From NCBI GenBank assembly GCA_032622095.1, contig CP136064.1:246917827-246981826 (forward strand): DNA of 64,000 bases. The letters run 5' to 3'. The first letter of the stretch is position 1. Each line of letters begins with the position of its first letter. Below the pieces are notes generated by a model, which was not told the DNA's origin, ran no database searches, and worked only from the letters and a program-made list of their open reading frames with translations. The position numbers and the translations under genes are program-made. The stretch is from Siphonodentalium dalli (lineage: Eukaryota > Mollusca > Scaphopoda > Gadilida > Siphonodentaliidae). Positions 626-61,951 of the stretch are shown piece after piece.

Positions 626-3600
626 CTGTATCGAAAGAACAAAAAAATTTGGAGAATATAACCCACTCTCATAAAAAATATGATGTACAGTAATGCCCTA
701 AATAATCGACCCCTAAACCACAGCAGAATTATGGGAAGTTGTTCAGTATTTAGTCGGAAATATGCCTTGCTGCCATTCATCGGAAAGCTCTCGGTGAGTA
801 CTTTCCGATGAATGGCAACAAGCCATATTTCCGACTAAATCCTGAAAAATGTCCCATAATTCTGCTGTGGTTAAGGAGTCGATTATTTAGGGCATTACTG
901 TATGTAGATCTAAAAAGGCTCATATACTTTGGGCATTACTGTATGTAGAGTTTAGACATTGAATGAGATATGTGACCCGCCATATCAAATCCAGTCGGAA
1001 GTCGGGATTTTTTTACCCTGTGCCAATGCATTCTCTTATATATGCGAGTCGACCATAGGTCGCCTCGCATATATAAGAGAATGCATTGGCCTAACAATTT
1101 TTTATCATTTGTTTTAAATAAATGTTTCTGACAATTTTTAGGACATAAAATAAAAAACATCCATTACCCTGCAGGGAGCCCCACACATACAATGTATATA
1201 GAAGCATATAGATGAGTGTCGTCTGCTCATGTTTGTCTGGGGCTCTGTATGGGTGAAATTATAAAATTGTTAAAGAATACAATAAAAAATTATTAAAATT
1301 GTAAAAAATTGTTAGGCCAATGCATTCTCTTATATAAGAGACACAGGGTAAAAAATCCCGACTTGCGACTGGATTTGATATGGCGAGTCACATATTAAGT
1401 AGATTACATAGACAGTAATCACTTGACTGAACTGGTGACGTGAAATAATTCATGAGATGCAGGGACGTTGTATAAACACGAGAGCACATTGCATTCGTGT
1501 GTTTTACAAAATAGTTCATGTGTCGATTGAATAATATCACGTCACCAGTTCAATTAAGTGTTTATTCTGTTTATTATATTCCACTATTAAAATCTGATTT
1601 ACTAGAAATCCGAATCATACTGCCATTATACCCATGATGCATAAATTTCTATAGCGTGTATGAATACAAAACCCGCTATTTAAAGTGATATAATTCAATA
1701 GTGAAATTATCTTTTATAATCACTCGAGAAATCAAGGTAAACCACGTGCACACACAGGTAAGTTGTAACTGGAGGTCTACAACTATGAATGCACCTTTAA
1801 CCCTTTAGGACGGGAGCTGCGCTGGTGCAGCATTACAGATCATGTACCAGTGCATTCTCTTATATATGTGAGTCTCCCATAGGGAGCCTCGCATATATAA
1901 GATAATGTACTGACTTACATGGTCAAGACAAATATTGTTAGAGCAATGTATTCTCTTATATATGAGAGACTCATATATATATAAGAGAATACATAGGGTA
2001 TTCGCAAAATTTCAGGAAGCTCTAGTAATGGAAGGGTTAAAAGTTGTCATAAAAATATTTGATTAAAGACATATTATGTACTTGTTCGGGTGCGTGAAAC
2101 TGATAAGTTAGTATTCAGGTGCTATGCCAACTGGATGAATGTAGCATTCTACTAACATTGCGAAAACCTCAAGCAAATCGATCGTACCACTCGATAGAAA
2201 ACATCATCTGAACTATGCTCAATTGTAAACATTTACTACTCGATTCGGGACGCATCTATCGGCGATAAACTAACGAAAACGATTTTGTCATCGACAGTCA
2301 CTAATATATAAGAATGACGGTGCACGTTGTCAATTTACATATGATAATAGTAAAACAACTACTTTGAACAAGATTATTCTCCATTTCTATTTGATCACCC
2401 TACAGGAGTGTTTCACATCACTTTAATTATATCAATTTATGGGAGCAGGACATATTTCTTTGACTAGTTGTGAAATCAATGTCATTCGCAGTCATCGTCT
2501 GATGAACGACAATCTTTAATTTGACAGGTACGACTGTCTTCTTGTTGCATAATATTATGCAAATTACTGCAACACACCACAGCCATATATCATATGAAAA
2601 ATAATAAAATGCGATGACTGATTTTTATACTCAACAGTACAATGCTTGGAATTGTACATGAAAGCCTGTTGTGACTCATAATGTTGCTTAATTATCTTTT
2701 TATTCATTAACCCTTTACCCAACAAACCGGCCAAAACCGGCCAAATAAAGCTTCAACAGCCTAAAATATCTTGGGTCTGTCTCAATAAAACCATACAAAT
2801 ATGGATATCATTGGAACCGGCTCCTTGGCCACATTGTGATAGTTACAGTTATGCCCTGTGCCAATGCATTCTCTTATATATGCGAGTCGACCATAGGTCG
2901 CCTCGCATATATAAGAGAATGCATTGGCCTAAAAAAAATCTTTTTTTACCATTTTTTCTTACATTCTTTAACAATTTTATAATTTTTAATGTGTTAAGCC
3001 AATGCATTCTCTTATATATGCGAGGCGACCTATGGTCGACTCGCATATATAAGAGAATGCATTGGCACAGGGCCCTTATGTTGGGTAAAGGGTTAAGTAT
3101 TAACACTAAGACATGAAACATGCAACTCACACAAGCCTGCAAATAGTGTGTCTGTCATTTGCAGAATGAGGTCCCCAGAAGGTGAATTTAGGGTCCTATC
3201 CTGCATCGTGGGCTAGCATCATCAAATTCACCCTCTGTGGACCTCATTCTGCTTAGGCCTCATCTTCTGTGATGTTTCCATAGTTTCAAATTAACAATGT
3301 TTTTTTGTTACTTTTTCCCTTCTGTTCGGTTTCTATATCCCCTAATTATCGGAAGATAAAATGCATAATCGAGGTGACTTATGGGTGAACATCACAAATT
3401 TCATCTCGGAAACTTCAATCTGATTGTAAGTCGTCCATAGCAGTTGAGGCCTAAGCATAATGAGGTTCCCAGATGGTAAATTTGGTGATGCTAGCCCACA
3501 TAGCATAATAACATCACTAAATTCACCCTCTGGGGACCTCATTCTGTAAATGATAGACACACTATTTGCAGGCTTGAACTCACAACCCTCATCGGACAGC

Positions 3601-6600
3601 TTTAAGGTTGACATAAATCATGTAGCATATATTACATAACACTTGCCACATTTTATCTAGACACATTTTATTTATTACCCTACAGTCACTTATCATGAAG
3701 ATAGAATGTTGTTTCTGAGAAAATGTGTGTTCTTTGATAAGATTTTTACTGTATAATGACACTAAAGTTTTATTACAATACTATAAAGAATTTAGCCACT
3801 AAAATGTTATTATTTTTTATAAAAATAACATTCAAACCTAACACATAAAGAGCAATCAATTTGTTTTCTGTTTGATATTTCTCATGAACATTTGAAGGAA
3901 GTCATGAACTAATGTTTGTGTTTGAGTGCAAAGTAAATGAAAGGAGACAGTATTGAGTAGTACATGTGAACTTGAACCTATACAAATTCTGGAATTGAAC
4001 TCTCTCAGTGCTGGGAATTTGTGGCATGTAGACGCCCTAGCCTGCAAATAGTGAGTCTGTCTTTCGCAGAATGAGGTCCCCAGAGGGTGAATTTAGTGAT
4101 GCTATCCCGCATAGTGGGCTAGCATCACCAAATTACTGTGTGGGATAGCATCACTAAATTCACCCTCTGGGGACCTCATTCTACTTAGGCCTCAACTGCT
4201 ATGGGAGCCCTAGCATCAGATTAAAATTCCCCAGTTGAAGTTGGTGATTTTCACCCATTTGTCACCTCAATTATTAATTTTATCTTCTGCAGAATGAAAC
4301 AAGTAACTAAATTATTATGCGGGGATAGCATCACTAAATTCACCCTCTGGGGACCTCATTCTGCGAATGACAGACACATTACTTGCAGGCTTGGTAGATG
4401 CCTGATATCCACACATAGATTTCTAACAGTTTGTATATGTGATATATAGTGGATTAGGCCAATATAAAAACATGCTTGTGTGACAGTGCTATTTTATATA
4501 CCAAAACAGTATATGCCTTTATCACATGCTACACATGTATACTAACTAAGTTATTAAACTTAACTCACTAATATACATTTTATAGCCACATTGTAATCAT
4601 TTCATTCCGCGTACTTGGTTCATTCCATTCCGCGCTATTCCGTTCTATACATTTCCCGTTCCCAGTCGCATTGCTGTTCTGCATGTTGCTATTTCGTATT
4701 TCTACTTTTGCCCAATACCTCATCCACTCTATTCTCTACCTTTTATTTAGCGCCCAATCTGAGACCTAACTGTCGGACACTAAGGTAATGTTATTTGCCG
4801 CCTTTTGTCAGTTCATAAATTGTGTTTGAGGTGTCAACATCGCTGCTGTATTGTGTTATCGCACTTGTAATTCTTCAAATGTCTGAAGAATGTAGAAGTT
4901 GATAAAGTATAAGAAATGAATACTACGTTATGACATCTTGACAGCTTGAGTATTCGATTAAATGCATGAAGACTTTTAAGGTAGGCTTAGTGTTTTCATA
5001 GACCCTGCCAGATGTTTAGACTCAGAGCCCATAAATGTTTGTGATATAGCGACTGATGGTTCACTAAAGACCCACCCCTGTGCTCTACCACACTTGATTC
5101 TCAGTCCCTCCCCTCCTCAAATATATTTCTTTGCATAATTTTCAGGTAGACTTTTTTCTCAAGCCTTTACCCTTCCATGACTGGAATTTCCTGAATTTTT
5201 TCGAAAACCCTTTGCCAATGCATTATCTAATATATGCGAGTCTCCCATAGGGAACCACGCATATATAAGAGAATGCATTGGCCTAACAATATTTACCTTG
5301 ACTGTGTAAGCCAGTGCATTCTCTTATATATGCGAGGCTCCCTATGGGTAACTCACATATATGAGAGAATGCATTGGCACAGGATCTTTAATGCTGCACC
5401 AGCACAGCTCCCGTAATGAAAGGGTTAATTAACCTTCAAAGTACATTGCAATGACCCAATAATCAGTCTATTTAAAAAACAAATTGGACACTTTAAAGAC
5501 ATATTATGGACTTGTTTGGGTGCTTGAAATTGATAAGTTAGTACTCAGGCGCTATGCCAACATGCGAAATGTAGCATTCTACTAACATCGCCGATTTTTT
5601 TTAAAGAAATCGACCATACCACTCCATAGAAAACATCGTCCGAACTACGCCCAATTGTAAATATTTACATCTTGATTCGGGACGCAACAATCGCCGATAA
5701 ACTAATGCAAATGATTTTGCCATCGATGCTCATCGCATTTAATAAATATATAAGACTGGCGGCGCGTGTTAATATTAATATTCATAAAAATAACTACTTT
5801 GAGCAAGATTATTCTCCATTTCTACTTGATCACCCTATCGGAGTGTTTCACATCACTTTAAATAAACTATTATTGTATAGAACTGACCATTTAAAAATAT
5901 ACAATGGAAGCTGTTGGAAGAGTCTATTATTCAGCTGGATAAGTGCTTATGAAAAATGAGCAGACGACAGACAGACCAAAGGATAATGCAAATGCAGAAG
6001 AATTCTTATACATTGTTGGGAAATGTTCAGATAATACGTTCAGCAAACAACTTATGGTTGTTTACTGAACTTATTATCTGAACATTTCCTAAGGGGACTA
6101 CTCATCAATGAGTATTTAGTATAGAAATAGTTAAAGATGATCTATAATCTCTCCTATAACACTTTTTATATAGTTTCCTGAGTATAAAATAATAAATATG
6201 AATCGAAGACCCCTTTCCGGAAACCCTTATATCAATTAATATTCATGTTATGCCAAACTTTCTGGTATAATACATGTAATAAATTTGGGACAATTTATGG
6301 CTCGCGAGAATGTTCGGAGCATAGCAAGGGGAAGAACTCTATCTCTATCTGAAAACGCCTGAAAATTTCATAATGGTCTGTTCTAAAAATAGTAAAAAAA
6401 ATTGTCCCAATTGATTATTACATTATATAAGAAAATATCAATATAAAATAATTCCGGACAGGTGTGTTCGAGTCATATTTATTATTTTATGCACCGGAAA
6501 CTATATATAACTTGTCAAAGGATGAGATGGACCATCTTCAAGAATAAAACATAAAAAATAAAATTTGCCTGCCACAAAATTGTGTGAGAATCTAGTAATT

Positions 6601-9600
6601 AACCCTTTCAGTGCCAAGTCCGATTTTTGTATCAACCCATATTTCCTAGATCATTTTTCAAATTTATTGATTATAATAATGTGATACATTGATGGAAAGA
6701 GCTTATTATAATCAATAAATTTGAAAAATGATCAAGGAAATATGGGTTGATACAAAAATCGGACTTGGCACTGAAATGGTTAAGTTATATTGGCCTCAGC
6801 TGATAGTAGTTAACATATTTTCAGATGCCATGAATTCCTTGAATAATTGAAATCGTATTTTCTGAAGGGTATCTTCTGAATGTATATCGTTTTTGATAGC
6901 AATCGACAGCTTTTGAATCAATAAACATACATTTATATTGTTACATAATCCATACAATTTCCCTCGAGATATAATCAAATAAGTTTCTTGAGAAAAGTGG
7001 TTGTTTTTAAATCAATTCTTTTAGTGACTGAGTTCAGGTTGGCGTGTGTCGAGTGTTGCTTTAGTTGGTAATTTGGCTAAATTAACACTCCTACATACAC
7101 TCAAACTGTGGAATTTAAATGGAGTATGTTGGTTGGTTGAAATCATGTCATGTGATGTCGTGCGTATGCTCCAACTTGTTTTTATATTGTATGGATGCAA
7201 CTTTTCGTGTTTCACACAAAATTTCAGACCAACTCGGAATGCAAGCAAAATTTTCAACATCCATTTATTAAATGAACTCCCTCCCCCACACATCAAGATC
7301 AGTGATGCCATGTCCTGTTTATGCTCCTTTTTAGATCTACATACAGTAATGCCCTAAATAATCGACTCCTTAACCACAGCAGAATTATGGGTAACTTTTC
7401 AGGATTTAGTCGGAAATACGGCTTGTTGCCATTCATCGGAAAGCTCTCACTGAGAGCCATATTTCCGAATAAATCCTGAAAAGTTACCCATAATTCTGCT
7501 GTGGTTAAGGAGTTGATTATTTAGGGCATTACTGTATATTATTAGAACAACACATAATTCATAGATCATAATTGGAAGTCTGTGTACATGAAGCAACTGA
7601 CTCCTGTCGGCAATACATGTAACAATATATGACAGAAGCGACAAGCACATGTATATGTACACATCTTAACCATTTAATGGGTACCATGACATGTATGTCG
7701 TTTAACCCTTTCAGTGCCAGGGGCCGATCTCATCGGCCCTAATTTACGGTCTGTAAAATCGGCCCTAAAAAATAAAAAAATTAAAAAAATACAATTTATA
7801 TATATATATATATTTGTTTTTTTGGGTTGAATTTTTTTTGGGTATGCTTAAGCATGCTATAGCGAATTTAAAAACAAACTGGATAAAACCTTAGGGGCAT
7901 GTTATAACTCAAAACTATCACCAAGTATTCATAGTAATAATTTTGATGCCCATGAAAAACGTAAGATTCCCTGGCACTAAGCCTACAAAATAAGTCTGTT
8001 AAAGAATATAAGAAAAAATTATTAAAATTGTAAAAAATAATAACAAATGATGAATTTTTTTTAGGCCAATGCATTCTCTTATATATGCGAGGCGACCTAT
8101 GGTCGACTCGCATATATAAGAGAATGCATTGGCACAGGGTATATGGGTTGATACAAAAATCAGACCTGGCACTCAAAGGGTTAATGGTTGATGAGCAAGC
8201 CTTGAAATAGGGTGTCTGTCATTTGCCGAATGAGGTCCCCAGAGGGTGAATTTAGTGATGCTACCCCCACATAGCGGGCTAGCATCACCAAATTCACCCT
8301 CTGGGGACCTCATTCTGCTGAGGTGTAAGCAGAATGAGGTCCCCAGAGGGTGAATTTGGTGATGCTAGCCCGCTATGCAGGGTAGCATCACTAAATTCAC
8401 CCTCTGGGGACCTCATTCTGCAAATGACAGACACCCTATTTCAAGGCTTGTTGATGAGTGGAATGACATAGATGTTGATTTACAGTAGATTGAGGGTATT
8501 ATTATGTTAGAGTGTTCATAAATTCGAAAACTCATCTCCTAAAACTTTTCATGGATATAATGGGGAGAGATATTGTTTTTATTATTTTTACATTGATAGC
8601 GTGCATTGGCTTACAAGGTCAAGGTAAATATTGTTAAGCCAATGTATTCTTTTATAAATGTGAGGCTCCCTATGGGAGACTCGCATATATAAGAAAATGC
8701 ATTGGCACCGGGCTTTCGAAAAAAAATTCAGGAAGCTCCAGTCATGAAAGGGTTAATAATGTTGTCTGTATGATTTATTTGTTACAATAGGCGATTGGTA
8801 CAATATAACTCAGTTTATTTGCAATAATATATTCGCTCATGAACATGACGTCGTATATGGCGTACTCACCCATCAAAGCATTAATCTAACTATTTTCTAA
8901 TTTACAGAGGCAATTGATAGTTCCTAGAGACTTTGAATCAGTGCATAATAAAGAAAACTTGCATAAAAAACTAAAACTTTCATGTTGTTAATGAATAAAT
9001 AATAGCACATAAAATAAAAAAAATGCATGTTCATGTTGACATGTTTGCTTTAGCGGATAATTAACACATAAAATAAAAACCAGAATACACTTTCATATTT
9101 GCTTTAGTGCATAATCACAGGAACAATCAAAGAATTTACCCTTTCTGTACTAAACAATCAAATGTATAAGAAACTTGCATTATCCTTTGGTCTGTCTGTC
9201 TATCGTCTGCTCATTTTCCAAAAGCACTTCTCCAGATGAATAATAGACCCTTCTAATGCATATTTTTAAAGGCACACTTAATTTTCGAATGCCCAGATAA
9301 CATTATACAAAACATATTCCATATTATATAACATTTGGAAGAGGAACCAAAAAATGTATATAATCCAACAGAATACGGAACAGCTGTGGCCAAGGGGTGT
9401 CCACCAAGTGATAGCGATTCTCATTATTCCAAGACTTTCCCCGTTGTCAACCCAGAATGCATCAGAATTCAACCTAAGATATAGAGTTATTCCCCCTTCC
9501 ATTGAGAATGATATAATTTACAGTACAGTCCGGATCAAAATTAAGCACAGATCACACCTCGACAAAAACAACATGTTCCCAGTTTATTCGATTGGATCAG

Positions 9601-12600
9601 TTGATAATACAATGTTTTGGAGCTTCCTCTTTCAAATGGTATATACTATGGAATATGTTATATATAATGTGATCTTGTGATTCGAAAATTAAGTGGGCAT
9701 TTAGATGGTTGTTTGTTGAACTTATTATCTAAACATTTCCCTCAATAAATATGGATCCTTTTGCACTTTTATTTATCTGTCATTTGCTTCTATCACCTTA
9801 TCATCCCTCCAAATCAATAATAGACCATTCAGATGTACACTGCTTATTAACTGACTGGGAGAGTCCATTTAGTATAGAAAGGATTAAAACACTCTTGTGT
9901 CGTCATTTTGCTTCCAAGTTGGAGAGAATCAACTAATAGAACAGACAATATGGATAATGTCTGAGACAGGACAAAATGCCGAAATGGCCATTTATGATAC
10001 ATATAATTGGTTGTTTTTTTTTTCAAAGTCATATTTTGACCAATTTAAGTTTAGTCATTTAAATGAGACATGGCACATTAAAATAAAAAAAATATAAACT
10101 AACCTTGCAAACCAGGAGGTCCTTGTCGTCCATCAAAGCCCATTGGACCTCTTGGTCCCACTGGACCTGTTTCACCTGCCTTTCCTTGAGGTCCGAGTTC
10201 TCCAATCTCACCAGGTGGTCCGCGTTTTCCTGGGACTGCGCCACCATCAACGAACACATCATCACCACTATCACCTGATCCCACAGTATCACCACCAGGT
10301 GGTCCAGGTGGACCAATGGGTCCTTGAGTGCCAGTCTGTCCACCATCACCCTTCACACCGCGTTCACCTTTCACACCAAAGCCTCTGTCTCCCTAGTAAT
10401 AGAAATCACATGGAAAATTTAAAATAAACTTTTAACCCTTCCATTGACAGGAGCTTCCTGAAATTTTGCGAAAACCCTCTGCCAATGCATTCTCTTAGTG
10501 CCACCGCAGACGCTGCGATTAAAATCGTAAGTGGGGAATATCGCAGGTAGAGCATCCACTGCGCATGCTCAAGACAATATCACAGTCATATCGTAGCGAT
10601 CAAGCAATGATTATTGCCAGGAAAATCGTGGCATGACCTTGGCAACGCATGCGATCATAGCTGTCACATGACCATGGTCACACCGGTCTCACAATTTATT
10701 GGCATGTGCTCGATCACTTGGATAAAATCGTAGCTGCAGACATCGCAGCACCGTAGCGTCTGAGGGCAAGCCACTTTTCTCCACCGGCGATTTTCCCAAC
10801 TTACGATATTAATCGCAGAGTCTGCGGTGGCACTTACATATAAGAGAAACATTGGCCCAAGAATTGAGACCAGCGAGATTTTCACAGAATGATTTTATAT
10901 GTAATTCCCTTGAGACATGCAACTCCTGGAATACCAGAGTCCAAATGTGTTTACGCCAATCATGCAGAGATTGTGCCCTCTATTTGAGATAATTTTTTAC
11001 AGTGTTAACTGTACGTGTGCACATTCATTCGTATTGCAAAGTTTCTTACGCAAGAGCAGCGCTTTATATACAGTAATGCCCTAATCGACTCCTTAACCAC
11101 AGCAGAATTATGGGTAACTTTCAGGATTTAGTCTCAGTGAGAGCTTTCCGATGAATGGCAACAAGCCATATTTCCAACTAAATCCTGAAAAGTTACCCAT
11201 AATTCTGCTGTGGCCAAAGAGTCGATTATTTAGGGCATTACTGTATATAGGCCGTTTGTTGAACTTATTATCTGAGCATTTCCCACCAATGAATGAATAG
11301 GAATCCTTCTGCACTTGTATTACTGTATTCTGTTTATATTTTCTGAACATCCCTCCAGAAGAATAATGCACCATTCCTATGTATACTTTTATAACTGATT
11401 AATTTAGCAATGAAGGGTTAACAAACCACTACTGACCTTTTGACCTGGCAGACCGATGAGGCCCGCATCTCCAGGGTAACCAGGTCCTCCGGGGAATCCG
11501 TCCACTCCAGGAATTCCAGGTTCGCCTGCAAGACCTGCGTTACCTTTTGAACCCTTCTCTCCCAATCCGCCACCATTGAACGGCGGTTCTGGAATGAATC
11601 CACCTGGTGGGCCAGGTGGTCCCGCCTCACCCTTTGGTCCCTGCATGCCAATCCCAGGACTACCAGAATTACCAGGAATTCCCTATAAAACAAAAATAAA
11701 TAAAATAATATGAATCATACGTGACATGTAGTGGAGCAACCACAAGTGCTGTGGCTCTCATGGATTGTGCAATCTTGTCTGGATTCTGACCCACATAGCC
11801 AACATGACGTAAATGACGTCATGAACCGTGCCATGACGTCTTCTCTGGTTTTCATTGAACTAACTAACAAAATAGGTCTAAACGAAACTAATATGCCTTA
11901 ATCACATGAGAATTCTTCGGAAGTGGTGAAGTTGACAATTTTATTTTCATCTCGTTGGTCCACTTCCAACTCCACAATTTTACACTCTCCAGACAGTTGC
12001 TAACCAGAGTCACATGTCAATTTTACAAAAAAATGTACATGCCACCACTCATCGCTATAGAAAATATAGAACAAATTATATGACATCATCACTCACCTGC
12101 ACCTAAGGTATAAGCTCCAATGTTGTGGTTGCTATAAAATCGAGCACCAGAGACAAGCCTAAAAGGCGAGTCATGGAGTCATTGTCACAAGAAACCTGAT
12201 CACATTCATAGCCAGCTTTTCAGATCGGACAACATTTGCCTTGACCTTGTAAGTCAGTGCATTCTCTTATATAAGCGAGGCTCCCAATGGGAGATTCATA
12301 TATATAAGAGAATGCACTGGCACAGGATCTTTAATGCTGCACTAGCGCACCTTCCGTCATGGACCCCAATCTCCCACCATAAAAGTGTTAACACTGAAAG
12401 CACACACTGATATCCAAATTAGTGTGGAAAGAGACCGTGTGTGAATTTTCAATGCATCAAAGGATAATCTCATTTACTGATTGGCTGAATATATCTGCTA
12501 ATAAAATAATTTGATTGGCAACTTGGGAAAGATTAATTATGCTGAACGTAAGTGAGACTAACATCTTGTCCAGGTATTCCCGGATCTCCTTTGGATCCCA

Positions 12601-15600
12601 TCAATCCGTCGATTCCAGCCAATCCCTGATTCCCTCTATCTCCTTTCTGCCCTGGCACGCCTGGAATTCCCATTTCACCTGGTATGCCATCATGACCAGT
12701 TTCACCTGTGTTACCTTTATCACCTTTATGATCTCCTAAAACAAAAATAGTTTTAAAGGGATACTCTACACCAATTTCAATAAATTCCTGGTAATACATG
12801 TAACAATGAGCTAATATCGATAATATATAGAACAATAAGTAACTTGAGTCGAAGATGTTTTCTGTAAATGTTCAGGTTAACATGTTATCTTAAAATTAGA
12901 GTTAATAATTTTATATAAATTAATTTATGGCTCCAGCCATAAGTTAAATTAAGAGTTTCCCTGTACAAGACATAATCAAATTAATTGACGGAAATTGGAT
13001 TAAGCAAAGCGTAGCACACATAATCAAGTAAAATATTATGTTGATACGGAGTGTAAACTCAATCCACTCACTGACTAGTGACTATACAATATCTTAAATG
13101 AGTATATGGGACTAGTATGCATATAAAACATTTATTTGACACATTTGTTTGAAAACTATACAAAAATTACTCGATGATAGTTCTATTTTCTCATTCCCGG
13201 CTAATCTGCCATCCATAACAATACTTCGTACTCAACAGACTTTCAAATAATGGAAATCTGGTTACCTTTGAGCAAGCCTTGAAATAGGGTGTCTGTCATT
13301 TGCAGAATGAGGTTCCCAGAGGGTGAATTTAGTGATGCTACCCCGCATAGCGGGCTAGCATCACCAAATTCACCCTCTGGGAACCTCATTCTGATGAGGT
13401 GTAAGCAGAATGAGGTCCACAGAGGGTGAATTTGGTGATGCTAAAATTCTTAAATCTACGTGTCGCGATCCCTCCCTCCCCCTTTGGAGCTCCATGCCCC
13501 GCATTGTTCGGCATCGCGGAGTGGCGCGTCATATTCATTGTTGTGTGATGCCATGTTTTTGGGCCTGTGGCCTTGTTGTTTGCATCTCGTTGCTGCTGTT
13601 CTTTATCTTTCAGGTGCTGTGTCATCAGTGCCATTGGTCCAGCTTTGGTGCGTCCTGCAGGGGTAACGGTTGTGTTACCCGCCCATTGCCGGTCGGCATA
13701 TTCCATCATGCTCTGCTCGAGTGTGATCTTACCAGGCCGGTGCTTAGCCACAGGGAGTTGGGCTGTCCAGTGGTCTCTCCTGCGCCGCACTCGTTGGGCT
13801 TCTCCCTGTTGGCCGTGTGTGCTTAATGCTTAGGGCGCCTCATAGCACTTCTTAGGCGTTTGCTCCGAATCATACCGTAGCTCGTCGGGCCATGCTCATA
13901 ATGCCCTGCGCTGTACAGCAGTATTTCTTCAGCGTCGGTTTCTCGTCAGAACTGAGGATCTGCTATAAATTGGTGCGTTTGGGCTATCTGCTGGACAAGC
14001 TTGTATATAATGTCGCATTAAAGCTGAGATCATACTCCACTCATGTATTGTCGCTTAAATATCCCATGCTGTAAGAAAGTGTTCTCCGTAGTGCATAGAT
14101 AATTGATACGGTAGTAGCAGGGCTGTCGCTGGTGGGGGTGGTGTCTCTCGGATCTGAGTAATCACATAATGCCTTGATATATGGTTTTAATAACAATCTA
14201 TGACATAAAATATGATTAAAATACTATAATTCATCACCATTTGGAACGTCTGTGTCTCAGAAAGTGTACATGAAGTATTAGAAAACAGCTGAAAAGAGAA
14301 TGTATTGGCCTAACAATTTTTATAATTTTTTCTTACATTTTATAACAATTTTTATAATTTGTTCTTATATTATTTAACAATTTTATCATATTTGCTTACA
14401 TTCTTTAACAATTTTTATCATTTTTTATCATTATTTCTTAAATTCTTTACATATTTTATCATTGTTTTCCTTTTTTTCTTACATTTTTTAACAATTATAA
14501 AAAATAATATCAAATTTGTTATTCCAATGCATTCCCTTATATATGCGAGGTGACCTATGGTTGACTTGCACATATAAGAGAATGCATTGGTACAGGGTTT
14601 TCACACAAAAATCAGGAAGCTCCCATCATAAAAGGATTAATAACTGGTGTGTAATAAATACAGAACATCAGACATGTGAAGGAGGTGAACTTTATCACAC
14701 TTGTTTGTTTTGCGCAAGTTACAACTCAAGCCTCATGGTTCTCGTTGCAATGTTTACACTCTGTGCGGTTCTGTCGATTTATTATACAGAACAATTTTAT
14801 AAGCTGAATACATCACTGGAGAAAATTGATGTTTAAAGTAGAAGTTATTGGAATTGCTACCTAATAGCCCTTCAGTAATATGTGTCCATGTGAACATGTA
14901 CCATCTGTTCCCCATATTAGTCACGCGGTGTGTACCATATTGTTATGACCACATTATATTGACCAAAGTAATTTACACTAGGAGTCAGAAATGACTTCCA
15001 TGTGATTGCCGACTTTGTTGCAATTTTTTTGACACTGGTGATGTCATAATTAATGAGCCAGGTTAGTTCTAGATGATTATACACATAGAATCAATCAATT
15101 TTATTTAGTGTATAATGATGAACTTGTATTTCACCTTACTGAACTACAGTAATGCCCTAAGTAATCGACCTCTTAACCACAGCAGAATTATGGGTAACTT
15201 TTCAGGATTTAGTCGGAAATATGGCTTGTTGCCATTCATCGGACAGCTCTCGGGGAGAACTTTCCGATGAATGGCAACAAGCCATATTTCTGACTAAATC
15301 CTGAAAAGTTACCCATAATTCTGCTGTGGTTAAGAGGTCGATTACTTAGAGCATTACTGAACTATGTTGTCCAAGTATTAACCCTTTATTCATTGAATCG
15401 ATTCTCCCATTCAGTTCAAGCCTTGAAATTGTGTGTCTGTCATTTGTAGAATGAGGTCCCCAGAGGGTGAATTTAGTGAGGCTACCCTGTTTTTCCTTGC
15501 TAAAAAGTGATTATGTAATAACAAGGATCTCAAATTTGTCACAATTCTATACAAAATTGATTAACCTCATCCACTAAAGCTTGGCTCGAATCAAATTTAG

Positions 15601-18600
15601 TGCACTATGTTAATAAATTTCGTAAAGAATTACGATTCATTAAAGATCCTCTATATAAACAAGATATTGCACCCAAAAATTATATAATAGCAATTATTGC
15701 ACCTAGTGCGAACTACTCAGGAACTCCAAAGACATCATCAGTATTTTAAGTTGTTTAAGTGTTTTGCTCACATCAGGTTTTGATACAGCAATGCTCTAAT
15801 TAATCGACTTCTTAACCACAGCAGAATTATGGGTAACTTTTCAGGATTTAGTCGGAAATATGGCTTGTTGCCATTCATCGGAAAGCTCTCGGGGAGAGCT
15901 TTCCGATGAATGGCAACAAGCCATATTTCCGACTAAATCCTGAAAAGTTACCCATAATTCTGCTGTGGTTAAGGGGTCGATTACTTAGAGCATTACTGTA
16001 TGTGTATAATTTAATTGAGCTCTCATGCGTCAGGTGTTCTCATAATCTATCTCATGATTTCCTAAAATTTAATCAAAAAATTTACAGAAAAAGTTAATGA
16101 TGTTAATAACCAACACATGAGATTAGATAATGTCACGTTCCCATGCTATTGTCTACATAGGAACCAGATGACTCGAGATGAGGACATTAACACGAAACTT
16201 ATGGCTTATTTCCCAGAATTCATGCAAATTTTAACTTCTGCTCACCATAATGAGCTGTTAATTACACCACAGTTCACTTTGATATAAATGGTGTGTTAGT
16301 GCCCGTTTATGTGAGGCCAGTCCAGATAAGTGTTTCTGACAATTGCAGAATGAGGTCCCCAGAGTGTTAATTTAGTGACGCTATCCCACACAGTAGGCTA
16401 GCATCACCATATTCAACCTCTGGTGACATCATTCGACTTTTGCTTATCTCTGGGAGGATATACATGTAGAGCTTCACTAAATTCACCCACTGGGAACCTC
16501 ATTCTACTCAGGCATCATCTTCTGGGAAGTATCTATAGTCTCAAACTAACATTGTTTTTAGTTACTTTTTCCATTCTTTTCAGTTTCTATATCCTCTAAT
16601 TTGCACAAGATAAATTGCATAATAGAGGTAACTAATGGGTGAACATCACCAACTGCAATTATGGAACTTCAATTTGATCCTAGGTCTCCCATATCAGTTG
16701 AGGCCTAAGCAGAATGAGATTCTCGGAGGGTGAAATTGGTGATGCTAGCCCACCATGCGAGATTTTATGGGCACTTTTATTTCAAAGGGTTATGCTGTAA
16801 CATACAGTTGACACACTTTTTCACCAGCGTTCTGTTTAACACCTGCACAATGTTGCACTATCATTTTTTATGATAGATTGCGGTTGACTTTAGGTAGTGG
16901 GTGGATTGAGGCCACTCTATGGTTGCTGAGCAATACTAACAGAAACCTTGCAAATGGGAACCATTTCTATATCTCCCGTCAGCCTTCGTTTGTGGGGGAT
17001 ACTGACTGATACACTACAGGAGTGCCCTAAATAATCGACTCCTTAACCACAGAAGAATTATGGGTAACTTTTCGGTATTTAGTCGGAAATATGGCAACAA
17101 GCAACAAGCCATATTTCCGTCTAAATCCTGAAAAGTTACCCATAATTCTGCTGTGTTAAGGAGTCAATTATTTAGGGCATTACTATACTTCAGCATATAC
17201 AGTAATGCCCTAATTAATCGACTCCTTTAACCACAGCAGAATTATGGGTAACTTTTCAGGATTTAGTCGGAAATATGGCTTTACTGTACTTTATATCTGA
17301 TCAGGAGTGATTTAGTGTGTCTGTCATTTGCAGAATGAGGTCCCCAGAAGGTGAATTTAGTGAAGCTATCCCACTGTGCAGGATAACGTCACTAACTTCA
17401 CCCTCTGGGAACCTTATTCTGTAAATGAGAGACACATTATTTCAAGGCTTAAGTGAATGAGTTAAATCGGACATCTGCAAACCTGACAGAAATACAACCA
17501 GTAGACGATTCTGGTAAATATTAGCCCTGTGCCAATGCATTCTCTAATATATCAGTCGCCCATACAGCACCTAGCATATATAAGAGAATGCATTGGACTA
17601 ACAATATTTACCTTGATCTTGTAAGCCAGTGCATGCTCTTATATATGCGAGGCTCCCTATGGGAGACTCGCATAAATAATAGAATGTACTGGCACATGGT
17701 CTTTAATGCTGAACCACGCAGCTCCCGTCATGAAATGAATGACTAGCTCAGTGATTGGCTTACCTTTCGGTCTCATTGGTGGTGGAGGTGGCAAGATGCA
17801 ACCAGGACATTTTGTAACAGGTGGGCTCTGAAAGAGTAATAAATTGAGTTGAAAAAATGTATGTCCTTGCCATGCTACAATATTGATATGGCCTCGTAAA
17901 CCAGGCTATAATATGCGTGTGGCTATTTTCAAGCCTGCCATAGCAGTTGAGGGCCTAAGCAGAATGAGGTCCCCAGAGGGTGAATTTAGTGATGCTAGCC
18001 CACTATGCGGGGGTAGCGTCACTAAATTCACCCTCTGGTGACCTCATTCTGCAAATGACAGACACGCTATTTGCAGGCTTGGCTATTTTGTTTGATATTG
18101 AATTTTTTCTGGTTTTATTTTATACTGTTTTGATGTTATAGAGGGACACCAAAAATAATATTAATTTTTCAATAACAACAGATATTCCTTGCTATAAATA
18201 AGTCTAGTTTTTGGACATATTTGGTTTTCAATGTATTTTTAACAGAACAAAGCAGAAAAGCAGATTGTTTGATGTTGTAAATTGAGGTCTGAAACCCTGT
18301 ATGCATCTTTAACCCTTCTATGACTGGAGCTTCCTAAAATTTTGCAAAAACCCTGTGCCATTGTATTCTCTTATATATGCGAGTCTCCCATAGGGAGCCA
18401 CACATATATAAGAGAATACATTGGCCTAACAATATTTAACTTGTCCTTGAAAGCCAATGCATTCTCTTATATATGCGAGGCTCCCTATGGGAGACTCATA
18501 TATATAAGAGAACTCACTGGCGCATAATCCTTGCACCAGCGCAACTCCCATCATAAAAGGGATACTAGCCTATGGGAGACTCACATACATATAAAGAGAA

Positions 18601-46464: not shown

Positions 46465-46626
46465 TCATATATAAGAGAATACATTGGCCTAACTATATTT
46501 ACCATGACCTTGTAAGCCAGTGCATTCTCTTATATATATATCCTTATGGGAGGTTCACATATACAAGAGAATGAACTGGCACATGATCTTTAATGCTGCA
46601 CCAGCACAGCTCCCATCATGAGAGGG
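46465..46626. repeat. PB3 MITE, left-truncated
   Basis: Starts mid-module (ATATATAAGAGAATACATTG), then one module and the right end before TTAA 46627-46630. Confidence 0.65.
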
Positions 46627-46874
46627 TTAATATTCATGAGATAAAGAGATATTCTCATAATTGTAGATCGCTTACAACTAACACAAAACCTATGCTATTC
46701 TTACAAGTTACAAGAGAGGAACTTTTGAAGTGGTACTTGGCAAGCCAGTGTTGTTTTTTTCACGTGAAGAAAAATACACAAAGAAGAGATATCGTGCTGT
46801 AAGAGATATGCTCTCAGTTCCAATATGATGGGGCTACTTGAATATAATTGTGTCCGTCTGATAGCTCTAGACTA

Positions 46875-47459: not shown

Positions 47460-47667
47460 GCCCTTAAATAATCGACTCCTTAACCGAAGCAGAATTATGG
47501 GTAACTTTTCAGGATTTAGTCGGAAATATGGCTTGTTGCCATTCATCGGAAAGCTCACAATGAGAGCTTTCTGATGAATGGCAACAAGCCATATTTCCGA
47601 CTAAATCCTGAAAAGTTACCCATAATTCTGCTGTGGTTAAGGAGTCGATTACTTAGGTCATTACTGT
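47460..47667. repeat. Family D MITE
   Basis: Full centre; left end eroded to GGCCCTTAAATAATCG, right end TCATTACTG. Confidence 0.75.
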
Positions 47668-48216
47668 AGTAGATCTACATCTAAGTTGTAACTGAAAATT
47701 GATCAAATAACCTCAATATTAAGGGGTATCCATGCCTGAGCTATGTCAGAAGGTGGAAATTTTAGATGGACCTGCACAGAAAACTTAAATGTTGAGCAAG
47801 TGCACCACATGAAGGAATCTAATTATATCTGAAGACCACATCAAGCATATCATATAACAATAAAAATGTCAAAAAGGTGACTTTAATCATATTTTTAGAA
47901 GGGAAATGTTGGGAACAGCGTTCTCAGCAAGTATAAAAAATTATTCGAAATGATTAACTGCCATAAAAAGTACATTTAAAAACATGATTCAAGTCATCTT
48001 TTTGACATTTATATTGTTATATAATATGCTTGATGTGGTCTCCAGATAGCATAGATTCCTTCAGATGGTGTATTAACTTAACAATTAAGTGGTTTTCTGT
48101 GTAGGCCAAGCTAAACTATAGCTCAGGGGTGGATACCTGTTAAAGACACAATACCTTATCATATTGAAAGTTGATAAAATCAATGTCAAAGGAAGAAAAA
48201 GAACACATGTCAGATA

Positions 48217-48429
48217 CAGTAATGCTCTAATTAATCGACTCCTTAACCACAGCATAATTATGGGTAACTTTTCAGGATTTAGTCGGAAATATGGCTTGTT
48301 GCCATTCATCGGAAAGCTCTCGGGGAGATCTTTCCGATGAATGGCAACAAGCCATATTTGCGACTAAATCCTGAAAAGTTACCCATAATTATGCTGTGGT
48401 TAAGGAGTCGATTAATTAGAGCATTACTG
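48217..48429. repeat. Family D MITE
   Basis: TA-flanked full palindrome of 213 bp. Confidence 0.8.
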
Positions 48430-48583
48430 TAGGCCTATGCCACTATTAAAACTGCATGTGCACAGACTGTCATTTAGCAGAAACTAGATAGTGTTCAAAT
48501 TAATGTCAGTCAATACCTACATCACTTATCTCTCACCTATCGAATGACTAACTACACCTGTGTCGCATTCCCCAATATCCATC

Positions 48584-49026
48584 CAAGCCTTGAAATAGTG
48601 CATCTGTCATTTGCAGAATGAGGTCCCCAGAGGGTGAATTTAGTGACGCTACCCATCATGGTGGGCTAGCATCACTAAATTCAGCCTCTGTGGACCTCAT
48701 TCTGCTTAGACCTCATCTGTTGGGAAGTATCTGTGGACTCAAATTAACATTGTTTTAGTTACTTTTTCCTTTTTGTTTAGTTACTATATCCCCTAATTTG
48801 CAGAAGAAAAAATGCATTTATATCGAAGTGACGTGTGAACATCACCAACTTCAACTGGGGAACTTGAATCTTATCCTAGATCTCCCATAGCAGTTGAGGC
48901 CTAAGCAGAATGAGGTTCCAAGAGGGTGTATTTGGTGATGCTAGCCCACCGTGTGGGATATTGTCACTAAATTCACCTTCTGGGGACCTCATTCTGCAAA
49001 TGACAGACACACTATTTCAAGGCTTG
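48584..49026. repeat. Family E long element
   Basis: Ends CAAGCCTTGAAATAG and complement; long-form interior. Flanks TATCCATC and TATATGTC agree at only 5 of 8. Confidence 0.7.
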
Positions 49027-49198: not shown

Positions 49199-50146
49199 CA
49201 GGGACCAGCCTACAAGGCGACTTGGGAGATATCTTCTCAATAAATTGTGCCACTTCTCCCAATTTATGTCCTAGGGAGAAGTGATATCTCTCTCACATAC
49301 GCCCTGTCACTAACTCGCGGCCATGTTGGATCCACCAGGTCCGGTTCTGTGTCAAAGTTTTGGAGTAGCTTTTCATATATGGAAGTCATGAATAATTCAA
49401 AAGCTCCATATATGGAAATGCTACTTCAAAACTTTGACCAGTAGCACTAAAACCATGGAACTCGGGCTGGAAGAATCTCTTAAACCACGGAAAGGAGCTG
49501 GATGAATCCAATACGACCGCGACCCAGTGATCTCGCTTATAACCCCAGTATGCATATATCAAACCAGCATGTTTAACCCTTTACCTAACAGAAGGGCCCT
49601 GTGCCAATGCATTCTCTTATATATGCGAGTCGACCATAGGTCGCCTCGCATATATAAGAGAATGCATTGGCTTAACACATTAAAAATTATAAAATTGTTA
49701 AAGAATGTAAGAAAAAATGGTAAAAAGTGTTAAAAAAAGATTTTTTTTAGGCCAATGCATTCTCTTATATATGCGAGGCAACCTATGGTCGACTCGCATA
49801 TATAAGAGAATGCATTGGCACAGGGCATAACTGTAACTATCACAATGTGGTCAAGGAGCCGGTTCCAATGATATCCATATTTGTATGGTTCTATTGAGAC
49901 AGACCGAAGATATTTTAGGCTGTTGAAGCTTTATTTGGCCGGTTTTGGCCGGTTTGTTGGGTAAAGGGTTAAAGTGTATTATAATGGTTTTATAAATGGG
50001 CTTTTGTATTGCATAACTTATTGGATCATGAGAAGTTGATGTTGGGATGTAAACTGAACATCAGCCATTGTGACTTCATGCAAATTCTCCCTTATAGGCA
50101 AATAAGGAGTGACCTGTCCCAATTTGAAACTTCTACACTTGTCCCT
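49199..50146. mobile_element. Family J element (copy 2) carrying PB1
   Basis: Ends CAGGGACCAGCC and TTGTCCCTG; the body matches copy 1 in reverse orientation around the PB1 site. Confidence 0.6.
49577..49968. repeat. PB1 MITE
   Basis: TTAA at 49573-49576 and 49969-49972; two modules; sits in J copy 2 at the same TTAA as the PB1 at 39845 in J copy 1. Confidence 0.85.
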
Positions 50147-51719: not shown

Positions 51720-54100
51720 ACAGCCAAGAGCAAAAATGTTAGTGAGGAAACCAGCCACTGTTAAGTTGAATGTCGGGTAACATCAATGCCAGCCCGAGAA
51801 TGCTCTGATTGCCAACAAACGGATGCACTAGATGCACTCTCCCACAGCACACATGTTCAGTGATCGTTTCTCCAGACATGTCGATCCAGCAGACATAACC
51901 AACTGCACAACTGAACGCGAAACTGGCATAAATTCTAGAACAAAATACCGCGCAATTATACGACAATGATAAAGAATGTATCCGGCATATGTCGCTCGAA
52001 AAATGTTCGTCTGGTGTGACTGAATCATGGTCCAAGAATGATGTAACATCGTGGAAAACATAATGACTAATATTAAATCTATTTTTCGACGAGATCCAGG
52101 AATAAATTACCGATCAATGAATAACGCATGCAGACATCACATCCCAGCTCACAGCGCATCTTTGTCGCACTTGAATGTCTCGCACGAGATCCCGAATTTT
52201 GTCGCACAATTTGTGGCATTAATTTTGTCGCGCAACAAACCCGTGTTTTGCTGCGGGTATAATTGTGTGGCCCTAAAAGTAATTCCAATTGTACCAATAG
52301 TTACTGGTGGTCAGTATTGGTCACTCGACCCCAGACTGTCTCGTTGAAGATTTCACAAAAAGCTCGACGTGACCCAAACATTTCCAGTCATGTATATATA
52401 CGGGTAGATGTAAATGTCCCCCGCCAATCGCGTGTCTTCCGAACATGCCATCATGGGCACCGAAAGCAATCAAGCTTGCACAACTTCCATAAAAGGCCAA
52501 ATGAGAGGTATCGGCAAACATGTTGCCAGCATAATATATCCCAGAATGACACATTGAAGGTCATGCAAATACAATTTTGAACACGATGTTTGGGTCCCAT
52601 CTGCACGACATGAAACAGAAAAGAGCGTTCCGTGTTATTCTGTTCAAGATATGGTAGAAAAAAGAGCGTTTGTTTCCAATCATGTGCGAAAATTAAAACA
52701 GCTTGAAATTGGCTATGACCATGGTCAGTATTGTTCAGACCATATGCAGCCGGTATATCAATATATCGTGTATTCGTCAACATATTTTATATCTCTTTCC
52801 AAAATACTTAGAAAGAATTTATACGCTCAAATGAGCCATGTCCGTTTAGGCTTCTAGAATGAGTATATTTGTCTCTTCTGTCAATATAACAATGCTGTTT
52901 TGGCTGACATCTCAGGAATATCTTGCCGGTATATGCAGTTTGAAATGGCACTATGTGCCGCCTTTGGGAAGGGTATATGGGTGAGCCTCCATCTGCCCCC
53001 CCCCCCTTCCCCGGTGCCCCTGCATGCCAAATCGGGAAATCATACAGTATATTATATCTAATATATGAATGTTACAACTCACAACGTTGTTCCTGTGGTG
53101 GGATACAGTTAACTTTAACTTAAGAAATTGTCCCTTGGCCTGCCTTGGCTATAATAAGGAGTGCAACTGGAAATATTTAAAGGTGAACACTCCCTCCATA
53201 ACTACATTGTAAAGACCTCCTATAGCACATATCCGGCAAACTATAGAAGACGTTATAATACTTATGAATGTCGTTGCGTCATTGTATAATTATGTAGAAA
53301 CCTCGTATCACTCCTACAGTGCATGGCTGCTCCCATATACACTGAACTGCCTGCGCCTTCATCGTTGTATTTGGGTGTTTTGCTGGCAGGAACATTGTAT
53401 TGGTCTATATCGCAGGAGGATGCCCGCATGCTTACCATGAAATCGACGATAACGACATTTATGTGGTCTGAAGCGCGACTCAACAGCAATAGTTTTCACG
53501 ATGCATGTCTACAATATACTAGACATAATTCAACCACTGCCAAGTTGCCAACTGCATAACAAATGAATCGGTAATGGTGCGAAACAGAAATGCAGATTGT
53601 TTTTATAAAGTCGCAGCACGACTGCTTGGTTGCACTTCATCCTAAACGAATATATTCTAAATATAAAAATCACCTAGCATAAGCTATGCGAAACTATGCC
53701 AGTGTGTAATTGTATTTTATTGGGTATTCTGACAAGAAAGATACAATGATATATGATGGTTATTGGGTATAATATTGGCCAAAGCTTATATAACCCTAAC
53801 CAGAACCACGTGTAGCAAGGCAGATTGCAGCTTACGAAACAGGGAGAGGCTTAATTGGAGGCCCTTTAATCATTATACAAGAGAGCTAACTATTAGCATG
53901 ATTACAGTGGAATAGGTATCTGGCTGTCTGCATTATGTGAAACGAACCATGATCGATCTTGGCAAACTTGGACCTCGTTGCCATTAAGGCTTGCTGGCAC
54001 TGGCATCCGTGATTCTCTTGCTTGTTTCTTCGTGATACATACTACGTAACATAGTCGATTATATACGTAACGCATAGCAGAACAGATCAGCAGTAACCGC
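51720..54100. other. Unassigned DNA
   Basis: Many open frames of 60-110 codons overlap on both strands (51739-52860), none with a recognised domain; text around 52100-52260 repeats GTCGCAC motifs. A distinct unknown repeat or a non-coding gene cannot be excluded. C-run at 52998-53010. Confidence 0.35.
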
Positions 54101-54114
54101 ACTTGGGCATTGAT

Positions 54115-54979
54115 TAGATCATGCCATGAATCTCCACTCTGGCTACGCCTGCTGATATCATATTCCACCTGTTCAAAACATGGGGGAATTTTGATATTCC
54201 GACCTGTTCTGACGGGGAATTTCATGACATTAAACAAACAACGCAGGGAATTTATTTGTTAATACTTGTTCCTTAATAATCCAGTTCACAGTTGAGGTGG
54301 TTGCTCCCAGCTCGAGATTGCATGATTTTTGTGAGCCGATATCGCAATAAACATTGAATTGAATGCCCGGGAGAAATTCTATGATTGTAAGCGATGCAAA
54401 GCAAAATCGCTCAGGAAAGTCAGTTAAATCATATAATCGCGAGCCGGATGTCGACCTTCACCTGGGACCTGCTGTGAAAAAATAGATTACATGCACTCGG
54501 ATTTATTTCAATGTTATAAACTTCCCTGTCTGGTCACAACATCAAAAAAGTTCACAGGCTTTGAACTGGTTAAGTATGCAACATGTCCTCACGCAAATAC
54601 GCACATAATCGACCTAGACCTATAATGTGAAATAGGTACATAATGTGATTATTTGATTCCGAAATAAGCAGATAAAGGAGTCATGTCCGTTATTTCGTCT
54701 TATGGCGCGGGCCACAGTGAAAACACCCGTTAAAGAGCATAAGGTCGTGAGTTGGCTTATATGTGTCATTGTCCGCACATAATCTGCTTAGAATCGCTCA
54801 TGATGACAACAACGCTCTCATTTTCAGCACATTATCGACTAAAATGAGGCGATTCTAAATAGATTATCTACGTAAATCAGATTCTATTATAAGCAGATAA
54901 TGTGCAGGTTTTCGAGAGAATAGACTGAAGTATGATCTCTACAAGCGTATAGCCAGAGAAGATATCCACGGCATGATCT
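54115..54979. repeat. Family G element with internal insertion
   Basis: ACTTGGGCATT occurs at 54101-54111 and 54980-54990, a target duplication. Ends TTAGATCATGCCATG and GCATGATCTA. About 330 bp (54570-54905) of unrelated AT-rich sequence with repeated TAATGTG/AGCAGATAA motifs interrupts the right arm. Confidence 0.65.
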
Positions 54980-58409: not shown

Positions 58410-58868
58410 TCAAGGGAAGTAAACCCTGGATGGAGTTTGGTTCACTGAAAGAGCGTTGCAGTGCTATATATATATATAGGTTTACTTTGAGTCTTCAAAT
58501 CCCGGTAACCATGGTAGCATCAAACACGATTCTCACTTGTTTTCTGCGGGGTCGGCCCAACAGACTGGCGTTTGACTGCATGTTGCAAGGAGCTTTTGTA
58601 GTCTGTTTGAACAACATGAGGACGTTTGAGTTCGCTCGGAGGAAAGCATTCCGATACTGTTTTCATGCTGACTGACCATGAACCCCCACATGGAGAAACA
58701 TGCTTTTTTCTCACTATATCGTACTGTTAGGTAAACAAATACTTTGCTCTGGATGTATCGAACATGCCATCTATTTGTTGACATAAGCTACTTTAATGCC
58801 GGTCCACACCATTGGGAATATTTGTTTGCGAATGCATGAGTCTCGGATTATAGTAAGACCATTAAGAC

Positions 58869-59362
58869 TAGATCATGCCATGAATCTCTACTCTGGTTAA
58901 CGCCCGCAGAGATCATGTTCCACCTGTACAAAACCTGGGAACTTTTTGATGTTCTGACCTCTTCTGCTATGGAACTTTATAACATTGAACAAACAAGGCA
59001 GGGGATATATTTATTCCTCGATAATCTACTTCAAAGTATGGGGTGGCCCCCCAGCTCGAAATTGCATGACTTTTAGTGACGGTAGTGAGCCGATGTCGCA
59101 AAATAAACATTGAATTAATTACACTGGAGAAATTCCACATTGATTGTAAGTGGCGCAACGCAAAATCGTCCACAAATCCCTTAAATAATGTGAATAAACT
59201 ATTAAGCATGCAACAGGTATTAACAAAGAAAAAAATCCCTGTGTTATTTTTTCGACTGTATGAGGTTCCTTGTCAAAACTTCAACAATTTCCCAGGTTTT
59301 GGACCGGTGGAATGTGATCTCTACGGGCGTTAGCCAGAGTAGGGATTCATGGCATGATCTGT
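58869..59362. repeat. Family G element, perfect 8-bp duplication
   Basis: ATTAAGAC at 58861-58868 and 59363-59370; ends TAGATCATGCCATGAATCTC and GAGTAGGGATTCATGGCATG. Confidence 0.8.
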
Positions 59363-61560: not shown

Positions 61561-61569
61561 TGTGTTTAA

Positions 61570-61951
61570 CCCTTTACCCAACAGAAGGGCCCTGTGCCAA
61601 TGCATTCTCTTATATATGCGAGTCGACCATAGGTCGCCTCGCATATATAAGAGAATGCATTGGCTTAACAAATTAAAAATTATAAAATTGTTAAAGAATG
61701 TAAGAAAAAATGGTAAAAAGTGTTAAAAAAAGATTTTTTTTAGGCCAATGCATTCTCTTATATATGCGAGGCGACCTATGGTCGACTCGCATATATAAGA
61801 GAATGCATTGGCACAGGGTCTAACTGTAACTATCACAATGTGGTCAAGGAGCCGGTTCCAATGATATCCATATTTATATGGTTCTATTGAGACAGACCGA
61901 AGATAATTTAGGCTGTTGAAGCTTTATTTGGCCGGTTTGTTGGGTAAAGGG
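61570..61951. repeat. PB1 MITE
   Basis: TTAA at 61566-61569 and 61952-61955; two full modules (61597-61663, 61744-61811). Confidence 0.85.

Follow-up and report, generated by a model that had tools for sequence, protein, structure and literature searches.

Families of miniature inverted-repeat transposable elements (MITEs) are usually named, and assigned to a transposase, by their ends. In the coral Acropora, six TTAA MITE families of the piggyBac type, the CMITEs, have different ends and one internal region that is better conserved, and one copy combines the ends of one family with the interior of another (PMC2872659). Here we describe a similar arrangement in the scaphopod mollusc Siphonodentalium dalli, in a single 64-kb window of contig CP136064.1 to which all counts and coordinates below refer. 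A palindromic hairpin module of 67 bp is found there in three families of TTAA-flanked elements, PB1, PB2 and PB3, and in two further carriers, E4, without paired TTAA ends. We propose, at a probability of about one half, that this palindrome is a subterminal cis-signal for mobility that has been recombined among elements with different ends.

The likeness to the coral elements includes small size, TTAA flanks, different ends around a common interior that is more conserved than those ends, and the presence of a mixed copy. The first-pass annotation of this DNA considered a module that outlasts the element ends unusual for MITEs; the observation is correct, and the CMITEs are its published precedent. 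The core itself differs. The CMITE internal region occurs once per element of about 100 bp and forms short stems only (as folded from the printed 60-base consensus), whereas the elements of the window carry a near-perfect palindrome of 67 bp near their ends, twice in PB1 and PB3, and the same palindrome is also present in the E4 carriers. The 60-base CMITE consensus does not resemble the module significantly (p 0.27-0.65), and kinship with the coral core was not found; a value of p = 0.03 in one out of eight comparisons, that of the PB1 spacer with the reverse strand, is taken as chance. Besides the CMITEs, no such case was found in the literature as judged by title and the start of the abstract, and a letter search with five sequence stretches returned no literature match. 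The pattern is known from coral; what is new is a different and strongly palindromic core, its presence in two copies in PB1 and PB3, and change that preserves its structure.

Subterminal palindromes are known from the piggyBac superfamily. In both piggyBac and piggyBat, a transposase domain binds such a palindrome as a dimer: in piggyBac a 19-bp palindrome-like repeat, one per end and at unequal distances from the two tips, is bound by a dimer of the cysteine-rich C-terminal domain (CRD; PMC7351741), and in piggyBat an imperfect palindrome occurs three times on one end and is recognised by a domain with a different fold (PMC11707139). These palindromes are shorter than 20 bp, whereas that of the window measures 67 bp, stands beside several tip sequences and is only a putative transposase-binding site. 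Other TTAA elements are less alike. CMITE-IN and the MSITEs (Microuli/Wuneng) also represent new mobile units built around an older TTAA element; the inner element of CMITE-IN retains its own TTAA borders, whereas none are seen around the core in the window (PMC2872659). Kolobok and KolobokP share the TTAA target duplication, but Kolobok termini read 5'-RR...YY-3', against CCCTT...AAGGG here, and the long direct repeats of KolobokP are not seen in the window (PMC9587614).

The hairpin module

A similarity scan of the window with both module types (m1, the type of PB1, PB2 and E4, and m2, the type of PB3) finds 51 traces of the module, 40 of which are near-complete (36 of exactly 67 nt and four with indels) and 11 fragmentary. 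The first-pass annotation had announced more than 40 copies of one hairpin in families with distinct ends, with arms of 32 nt and one mismatch in PB1 and PB2; both the claim and the module coordinates are borne out in PB1, PB2, PB3 and the E4 carriers. A 26-nt module arm yields 71 matches with up to three mismatches, against none in 100 dinucleotide shuffles, and module pieces of 26 and 20 bases have no exact match in viral and prokaryote contigs. Folded as DNA, m1 forms a stem of 32 positions per arm, 31 of them paired and one a T.C mismatch, around the loop ATA, with an energy of -33.2 kcal/mol against -5.4 in shuffles (z = -14.2).

The mismatch, T27.C41, is present in all 36 full-length modules and the ATA loop in 34 of them. 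The m1 consensus is identical among PB1, PB2 and E4, and the earlier proposal that the loop region marks lineages agrees with the letters at columns 29/30 and 38/39, which read GA/TC in 19 of the 20 full-length modules of PB1, PB2 and E4 and, for PB3, TC/GA in 11 of 15 (13 with AC/GA counted in).

What the families share extends beyond the hairpin and comprises CCCTGTG, the module and CYTAA, about 79 bp in all. Across five arm types with one representative each (E4-L, PB1-A, PB1-B, PB2-B and PB3-A; inclusion of PB3-B would lower the percentages), identity is 31% in the flank from -27 to -8, 100% in CCCTGTG, 95% in the module and 92% in the next five bases inward, and falls to 42% further in. 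The CCCTGTG edge is exact next to 25 of 40 modules, with TCCTGTG or TCATGTG in its place at six of ten PB3 B-side modules. Allowing two mismatches, it stands on the outer side, as defined by the loop, of 33 of the 36 full-length modules, and the other three lack it on the inner side as well.

Modules frequently occur in pairs, with one at each element end, and all 15 complete pairs face inward. Orientation is mixed among fragments: 44947-44979 is reversed for its side, with arm letters of the opposite side, and for the degenerate copies 1944-1997 and 30074-30126 the match is in the + sense although - is expected. Collapsed modules, or modules cut in stem or loop, are seen at 1317-1341, 1944-1997, 23057-23109, 30074-30126 and 44947-44979, as expected of palindromes in replication.

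Carrier elements and their movement

The module or its traces are carried by eight PB1 elements, by three complete PB2 elements and one B-end fragment, and by 15 PB3-armed elements or parts, a tally that includes the recombinant at 14310 (Table 1). Among the 19 elements checked for TTAA flanks and empty sites, 17 have TTAA on both sides, and the two exceptions show TTTA on the left and TTCT on the right, respectively. Consensus tips read CCCTT in PB1, PB2 and PB3, in agreement with the CC[C/T]T terminal motif by which piggyBac-type TTAA MITEs are recognised (PMC2872659); single copies depart from it, such as TTAACTCTTT at 22613. PB3 consensus ends are CCCTTCCATGACTGG on one side and CCCTTTCATGACGGG on the other. 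Judged by these sequence features, the three families are non-autonomous TTAA elements of the piggyBac type.

The distance from tip to module is 150 and 27 bp in PB1, 45 and 47 bp in PB3, and 48 bp in PB2. Each complete PB2 element has a single module, at the end reading ...CAGGTCYGA or near it, and none at the other end (...GGGCCGAT). One PB3 A end, at 19328-19673, runs into a tandem array (29-bp unit, 10.5 copies) and contains no module.

Empty sites indicate that TTAA elements move as whole units together with their arms. PB1 29231 is inserted at the internal TTAA of a PB2 element, and insert-free versions of this PB2 stretch lie at 7784-7911 (89% over 129 bp) and 22455-22548 (92%). For PB1 39386, the window contains an empty site at 41580-41695 (84% over 116 bp). 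Weaker evidence comes from PB2 7702, for which a match at 8402-8475 (84%) extends merely 13 bp into one flank and a second match covers both flanks at 69%, and from four more of the 19 queries with spanning matches of 67-81%; for the remaining 12 and for the E4 query, no empty site was found within the window.

The two E4 carriers are 93% identical over 227 bp of their interior and have part of one arm (33 bp) in common, with no common terminus found within the window. The carrier at 968-1395 has outer inverted repeats of 46 nt (968-1013/1350-1395, 96% identical), a single flanking TTAA, on the right (1395-1398), and a readable TA on both sides. The left side of the second adjoins a copy of repeat family F, whose members with TAGATCATGCC-like ends lie at 30703-31162, 43854-44332, 54090-54580, 58867-59360 and 23960-24175. 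A right-hand match of 11-13 bp to the end of F (E = 0.16 at up to 13 bp) suggests, not securely, that the second carrier lies inside a copy of F from which about 47 bp are missing. A MITE of the Tc1/mariner type would show a TA target duplication and terminal repeats common to several copies; the first carrier has its readable TA pair besides the one-sided TTAA, and the second copy is truncated. The E4 carriers may belong to a different superfamily or represent rearranged fragments.

Outer arms compared with the core

Outer arms and spacers were compared by local alignment against 300 dinucleotide shuffles, for which the smallest attainable p is 0.003. Outside CCCTGTG, no pair of outer arms from different families is similar at p < 0.01 (the lowest value is 0.033, for PB2-A and PB3-B). 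Arms of the same family do resemble each other, with p = 0.003 for PB2-A/PB2-B, PB3-A/PB3-B and E4/E4, and 0.013 for PB1-A/PB1-B. On the inner side of the module, the AT-rich spacers of PB1-A, PB2-B and E4-R are mutually similar (p = 0.003 in all three pairs), as is the PB2-B spacer to both E4 sides (p = 0.003 each). Abrupt dissimilarity of the arms next to similar spacers argues for replacement of arms or transfer of the core, and not for slow drift of a single family. The first-pass annotation had set ordinary divergence of one family against its own reading; what is found instead is that the outer arms of different families lack significant similarity.

Two copies combine features of both module lineages. 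At 14524, an A arm of PB3 type (80% over 44 bp, E = 8e-6) is joined to a module with five differences from m1 and ten from the PB3-A consensus, followed by a spacer similar to those of PB1-B and PB2-B (p = 0.003 each; E4-R 0.013, PB1-A 0.037, E4-L 0.13). The module at 45011 is a mosaic, with m1 letters in its 5' arm and m2 letters in its 3' arm. The recombinant and the mosaic, a single case each, show that arms and core are not strictly inherited together. Exchange between elements is nevertheless not pervasive, because the A-side and B-side modules of PB3 are kept distinct: they differ at columns 4, 61 and 64, and G at column 4 is found in one of eight A-side and six of seven B-side modules. 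Of the earlier suggestion that modules are exchanged between elements, the occurrence of exchange is supported, within these bounds.

Conservation of pairing

Between lineages, the hairpin changes in a way that preserves it. The m1 consensus and the two PB3 consensuses differ at nine positions, six of which fall in pairs where both partners changed (4/64, 29/39 and 30/38); 29/30 with 38/39 perhaps represent one event, and only two or three independent events lie behind the six positions. The other three comprise one that retains a G-T pair and two that break a pair. Within copies (35 of the 36 full-length modules, 14524 being excluded), 71 substitutions from the group consensus include two compensated ones, forming a single pair, and 48 that break a pair. 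The proportions of compensated change, 6/9 between lineages against 2/71 within copies, differ at p = 7e-6 (Fisher, neighbouring changes counted apart). Mobile sources have accordingly retained the palindrome, resident copies lose it at random, and such a pattern is expected of a mobility signal and not of a host function or of self-repair. Three of five covariation measures exceed all 500 shuffles and the other two are reached by 159 and 139 of the 500; they were computed on 24 rows (the 36 full-length modules minus 12 consensus-identical m1 copies), which are related, and we give them little weight.

The rate of change points in the same direction in PB1, where private substitutions amount to 4/938 bases in modules and 22/1283 in arms (p = 0.005), or 4/938 against 26/1676 in arms plus spacer once the divergent spacer 33811-33903 is dropped (p = 0.011). 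For this count, modules were excised individually and 39841, which lacks a full module, contributes arms only; it supersedes one in which 39841 was misaligned into the second module (p = 0.70 against flanks, 0.34 against arms). Change that is private among the eight PB1 copies may be shared genome-wide, and so may reflect variation among sources. The corresponding PB3 figures (modules 61/1200, arms 69/666) are given no weight, because the comparison is biased: similarity was the means of locating the modules, whereas the arms were taken at set lengths.

A proposed subterminal signal and alternative explanations

The option of a conserved cis signal, already raised in the first-pass annotation, fits these observations best: compensation between lineages, decay within copies, placement near the ends and fewer private changes in modules than in arms of PB1. 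In this scheme, the long palindrome that faces inward just inside the tips, once at each end of PB1 and PB3 and at a single end of PB2, constitutes together with its CCCTGTG edge (and, in the m1 families, the AT-rich middle) a core joined to several unrelated sets of arms. Sources with a broken palindrome would be less mobilised, hence the palindrome would be kept. Its likeliest role would be that of a two-fold symmetric double-stranded site, putatively bound by a transposase or a host factor, and new combinations of arm and core could arise through recombination, or through post-excision gap repair templated on another element. A position 27-150 bp from the tips fits the piggyBac layout and would be compatible with transposase binding, whereas the length of the palindrome does not fit. 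A further step, which we regard as doubtful, is that the palindrome is a portable mobilisation signal: placed beside almost any tips it would recruit a shared factor, so that MITEs could swap ends and transposase while keeping the core, perhaps even across superfamilies, between the piggyBac-type TTAA elements and the E4 carriers.

Several points weigh against a mobility signal. The module far exceeds a piggyBac palindrome in length, and the likeness is one of position and symmetry only. PB2 elements have one module, the PB1 element at 39841 has part of one, and the TTAA-flanked fold-back at 6599 has none; either two modules are not strictly required or these copies lost modules after insertion, and any module at all may be dispensable. 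A function as a hairpin is not distinguishable from one as a duplex palindrome. No transposase domain was found in the 20 open reading frames scanned, out of 63 listed for the window. In the PB3 A-side consensus itself, pairing is broken at columns 7/61 and 23/45. With the divergent copy dropped, private change in the PB1 spacer (4/393) is not far above that in the modules, and the low figure for modules could stem from conversion or from read polishing. Spacer similarity is also uneven, with p = 0.07 for PB1-A/E4-L, 0.28-0.92 for PB1-B with PB2-B and E4, and 0.03 or higher for PB3 spacers against the m1 families.

MITEs commonly contain unrelated filler DNA, and the core could be such a passenger, passed between elements by recombination or abortive gap repair with no role in transposition. 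We consider this unlikely. It would account for the sharp outer boundary and for the spacer that some pairs also have in common, for the recombinant 14524 and the mosaic 45011, and for TTAA-flanked elements with one, a partial or no module, and the identity of the PB1, PB2 and E4 cores would merely reflect recent transfer. It leaves unexplained the compensated changes between m1 and m2 and between the two PB3 sides, the T.C mismatch that none of the 36 modules has lost, and a rate of change in PB1 modules four-fold below that of the arms.

Descent from one ancestor, with ends that drifted or tracked their transposases around a conserved core, appears improbable. The CCCTT tip common to the TTAA families and the layout of arm, module, spacer, module and arm in PB1 and PB3 speak for it, as does the association of m2 with PB3 arms in 13 of 15 full-length PB3 modules (counting AC/GA as m2, or 14 with TC/TA; one is the mosaic). 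Drift, however, would not end abruptly at one base, nor leave arms of different families without similarity at p < 0.01 beside spacers that are similar in several pairs; congruence is broken by the m1 core found beside a PB3 arm, and the E4 arms have no paired TTAA ends.

Somewhat less probable again is that read-through transcripts of the hairpin serve as Dicer or Drosha substrates that silence or hide the elements. A 31-pair stem with a 3-nt loop would be suitable, and compensated changes suit RNA equally well, but no Rfam family matches in the window at the gathering threshold, and inward placement near the ends points to transposition.

A module that is itself mobile and inserted into several elements, an option of the first-pass annotation for which its four kinds of outer arms might speak, finds scarcely any credit given the inward orientation of every complete pair, the outer CCCTGTG-like flank of 33 of the 36 full-length modules and borders that, inspected by eye, show no target duplication of their own. 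We likewise reject a palindrome that corrects itself by arm-to-arm template switching, a very remote prospect despite the stem rearrangement in the collapsed hairpins 1317-1341, 1944-1997 and 30074-30126, as such correction would not leave the same mismatch in every module and merely 2/71 changes compensated.

Other features of the window

Short-loop hairpins are a general habit of the window, in which 39 near-perfect ones pass a scan against 0 on average in three shuffles. A second family, unlike the module, consists of giant near-perfect hairpins with 88-107 paired positions, loops of 1-7 nt and ends reading TACAGTAATGCCC...; a third (GCAGAATGAGGTCCCCAGAGGGTG...) has 38-129 paired positions and loops of 3-8 nt. 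On the - strand, 10099-12871 and 28228-29013 encode three collagen triple-helix segments and one laminin-G-like segment (below the Pfam cut-off, E = 0.003), which by their predicted translations are probably exons of a host gene.

Table 1. Module carriers and hairpin families, with positions relative to the window
Feature	Position	Strand	Modules and remarks
E4 carrier	968-1395		1023-1089, collapsed 1317-1341; outer inverted repeats
E4 carrier, second	about 31160-31570		31180-31246, 31468-31534; adjoining or within repeat F
PB1	2707-3096	+	2861-2927 (inward +), 2999-3065 (inward -); TTAA both sides; tip-module 150 and 27 bp
PB1	25559-25894	+	25703-25769, 25797-25863; shortened spacer
PB1	29231-29630	-	29262-29328, 29410-29476; nested in PB2 internal TTAA; empty sites
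PB1	33591-34000	+	33745-33811, 33903-33969
PB1	39386-39782	-	39417-39483, 39563-39629; empty site 41580-41695
PB1	39841-40138	+	partial 39999-40022; second module absent
PB1	49573-49972	-	49604-49670, 49752-49818
PB1	61566-61955	-	61597-61663, 61745-61811
PB2	7702-8184	+	single, 8066-8132, B end; spanning match 8402-8475
PB2	22170-22613	-	single, 22222-22288, B end
PB2	29097-29939	+	single, 29821-29887, B end; hosts nested PB1
PB2 B-end fragment	24476-24561	+	truncated 24476-24515
Fold-back, two PB2-B-like arms	6599-6783		no module; 89% identical to own reverse complement; TTAA both sides
PB3	1797-2040	-	1847-1913 (B side), degenerate 1944-1997
PB3	5166-5428	+	5215-5281, 5311-5377; left flank TTTA
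PB3 half element	8610-8756	-	8639-8705; A arm and TTAA
PB3 A end	10432-10501	+	outer part of one module arm only; outside the 51 traces
PB3 half element	12229-12361	+	12254-12320; B arm
Recombinant	14310-14640	-	m1-type 14524-14590; PB3-type A arm, m1-type AT-rich spacer
PB3	17532-17735	+	17532-17596, 17626-17692; A arm not recognisable
PB3	18309-18645	+	18358-18424, 18454-18520; additional fragment 18569-18608
PB3, three modules	23008-23352	+	degenerate 23057-23109, 23139-23205, 23235-23301
PB3, degenerate	29940-30152	+	traces 30009-30043, 30074-30126
PB3	32197-32464	+	32246-32312, 32342-32413
PB3 A-end fragment	34561-34631	-	module remnant
PB3	35772-36024	-	35823-35887, 35909-35975
PB3	41157-41411	-	41200-41266, 41296-41362
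PB3	44887-45125	-	fragment 44947-44979, mosaic 45011-45077; right flank TTCT
PB3 half element	46466-46630	+	traces 46466-46487, 46517-46579
Giant hairpins	686-902, 15147-15359, 15783-16001, 34344-34560, 36043-36265, 47465-47655, 48215-48431		further partial copies
Third hairpin family	8270-8377, 13303-13393, 17959-18052, 22046-22138, 23394-23663, 27349-27604, 48613-48705		

Implications

A core that outlives changes of the ends implies that ends and interiors can have separate histories, and that trees built from either alone mislead. Together with the coral CMITEs, the module would be a second, unrelated sequence that displays this pattern in TTAA MITEs. This hints at a general property of piggyBac-type elements, in which a subterminal palindrome may outweigh the terminal inverted repeat beyond its first bases.

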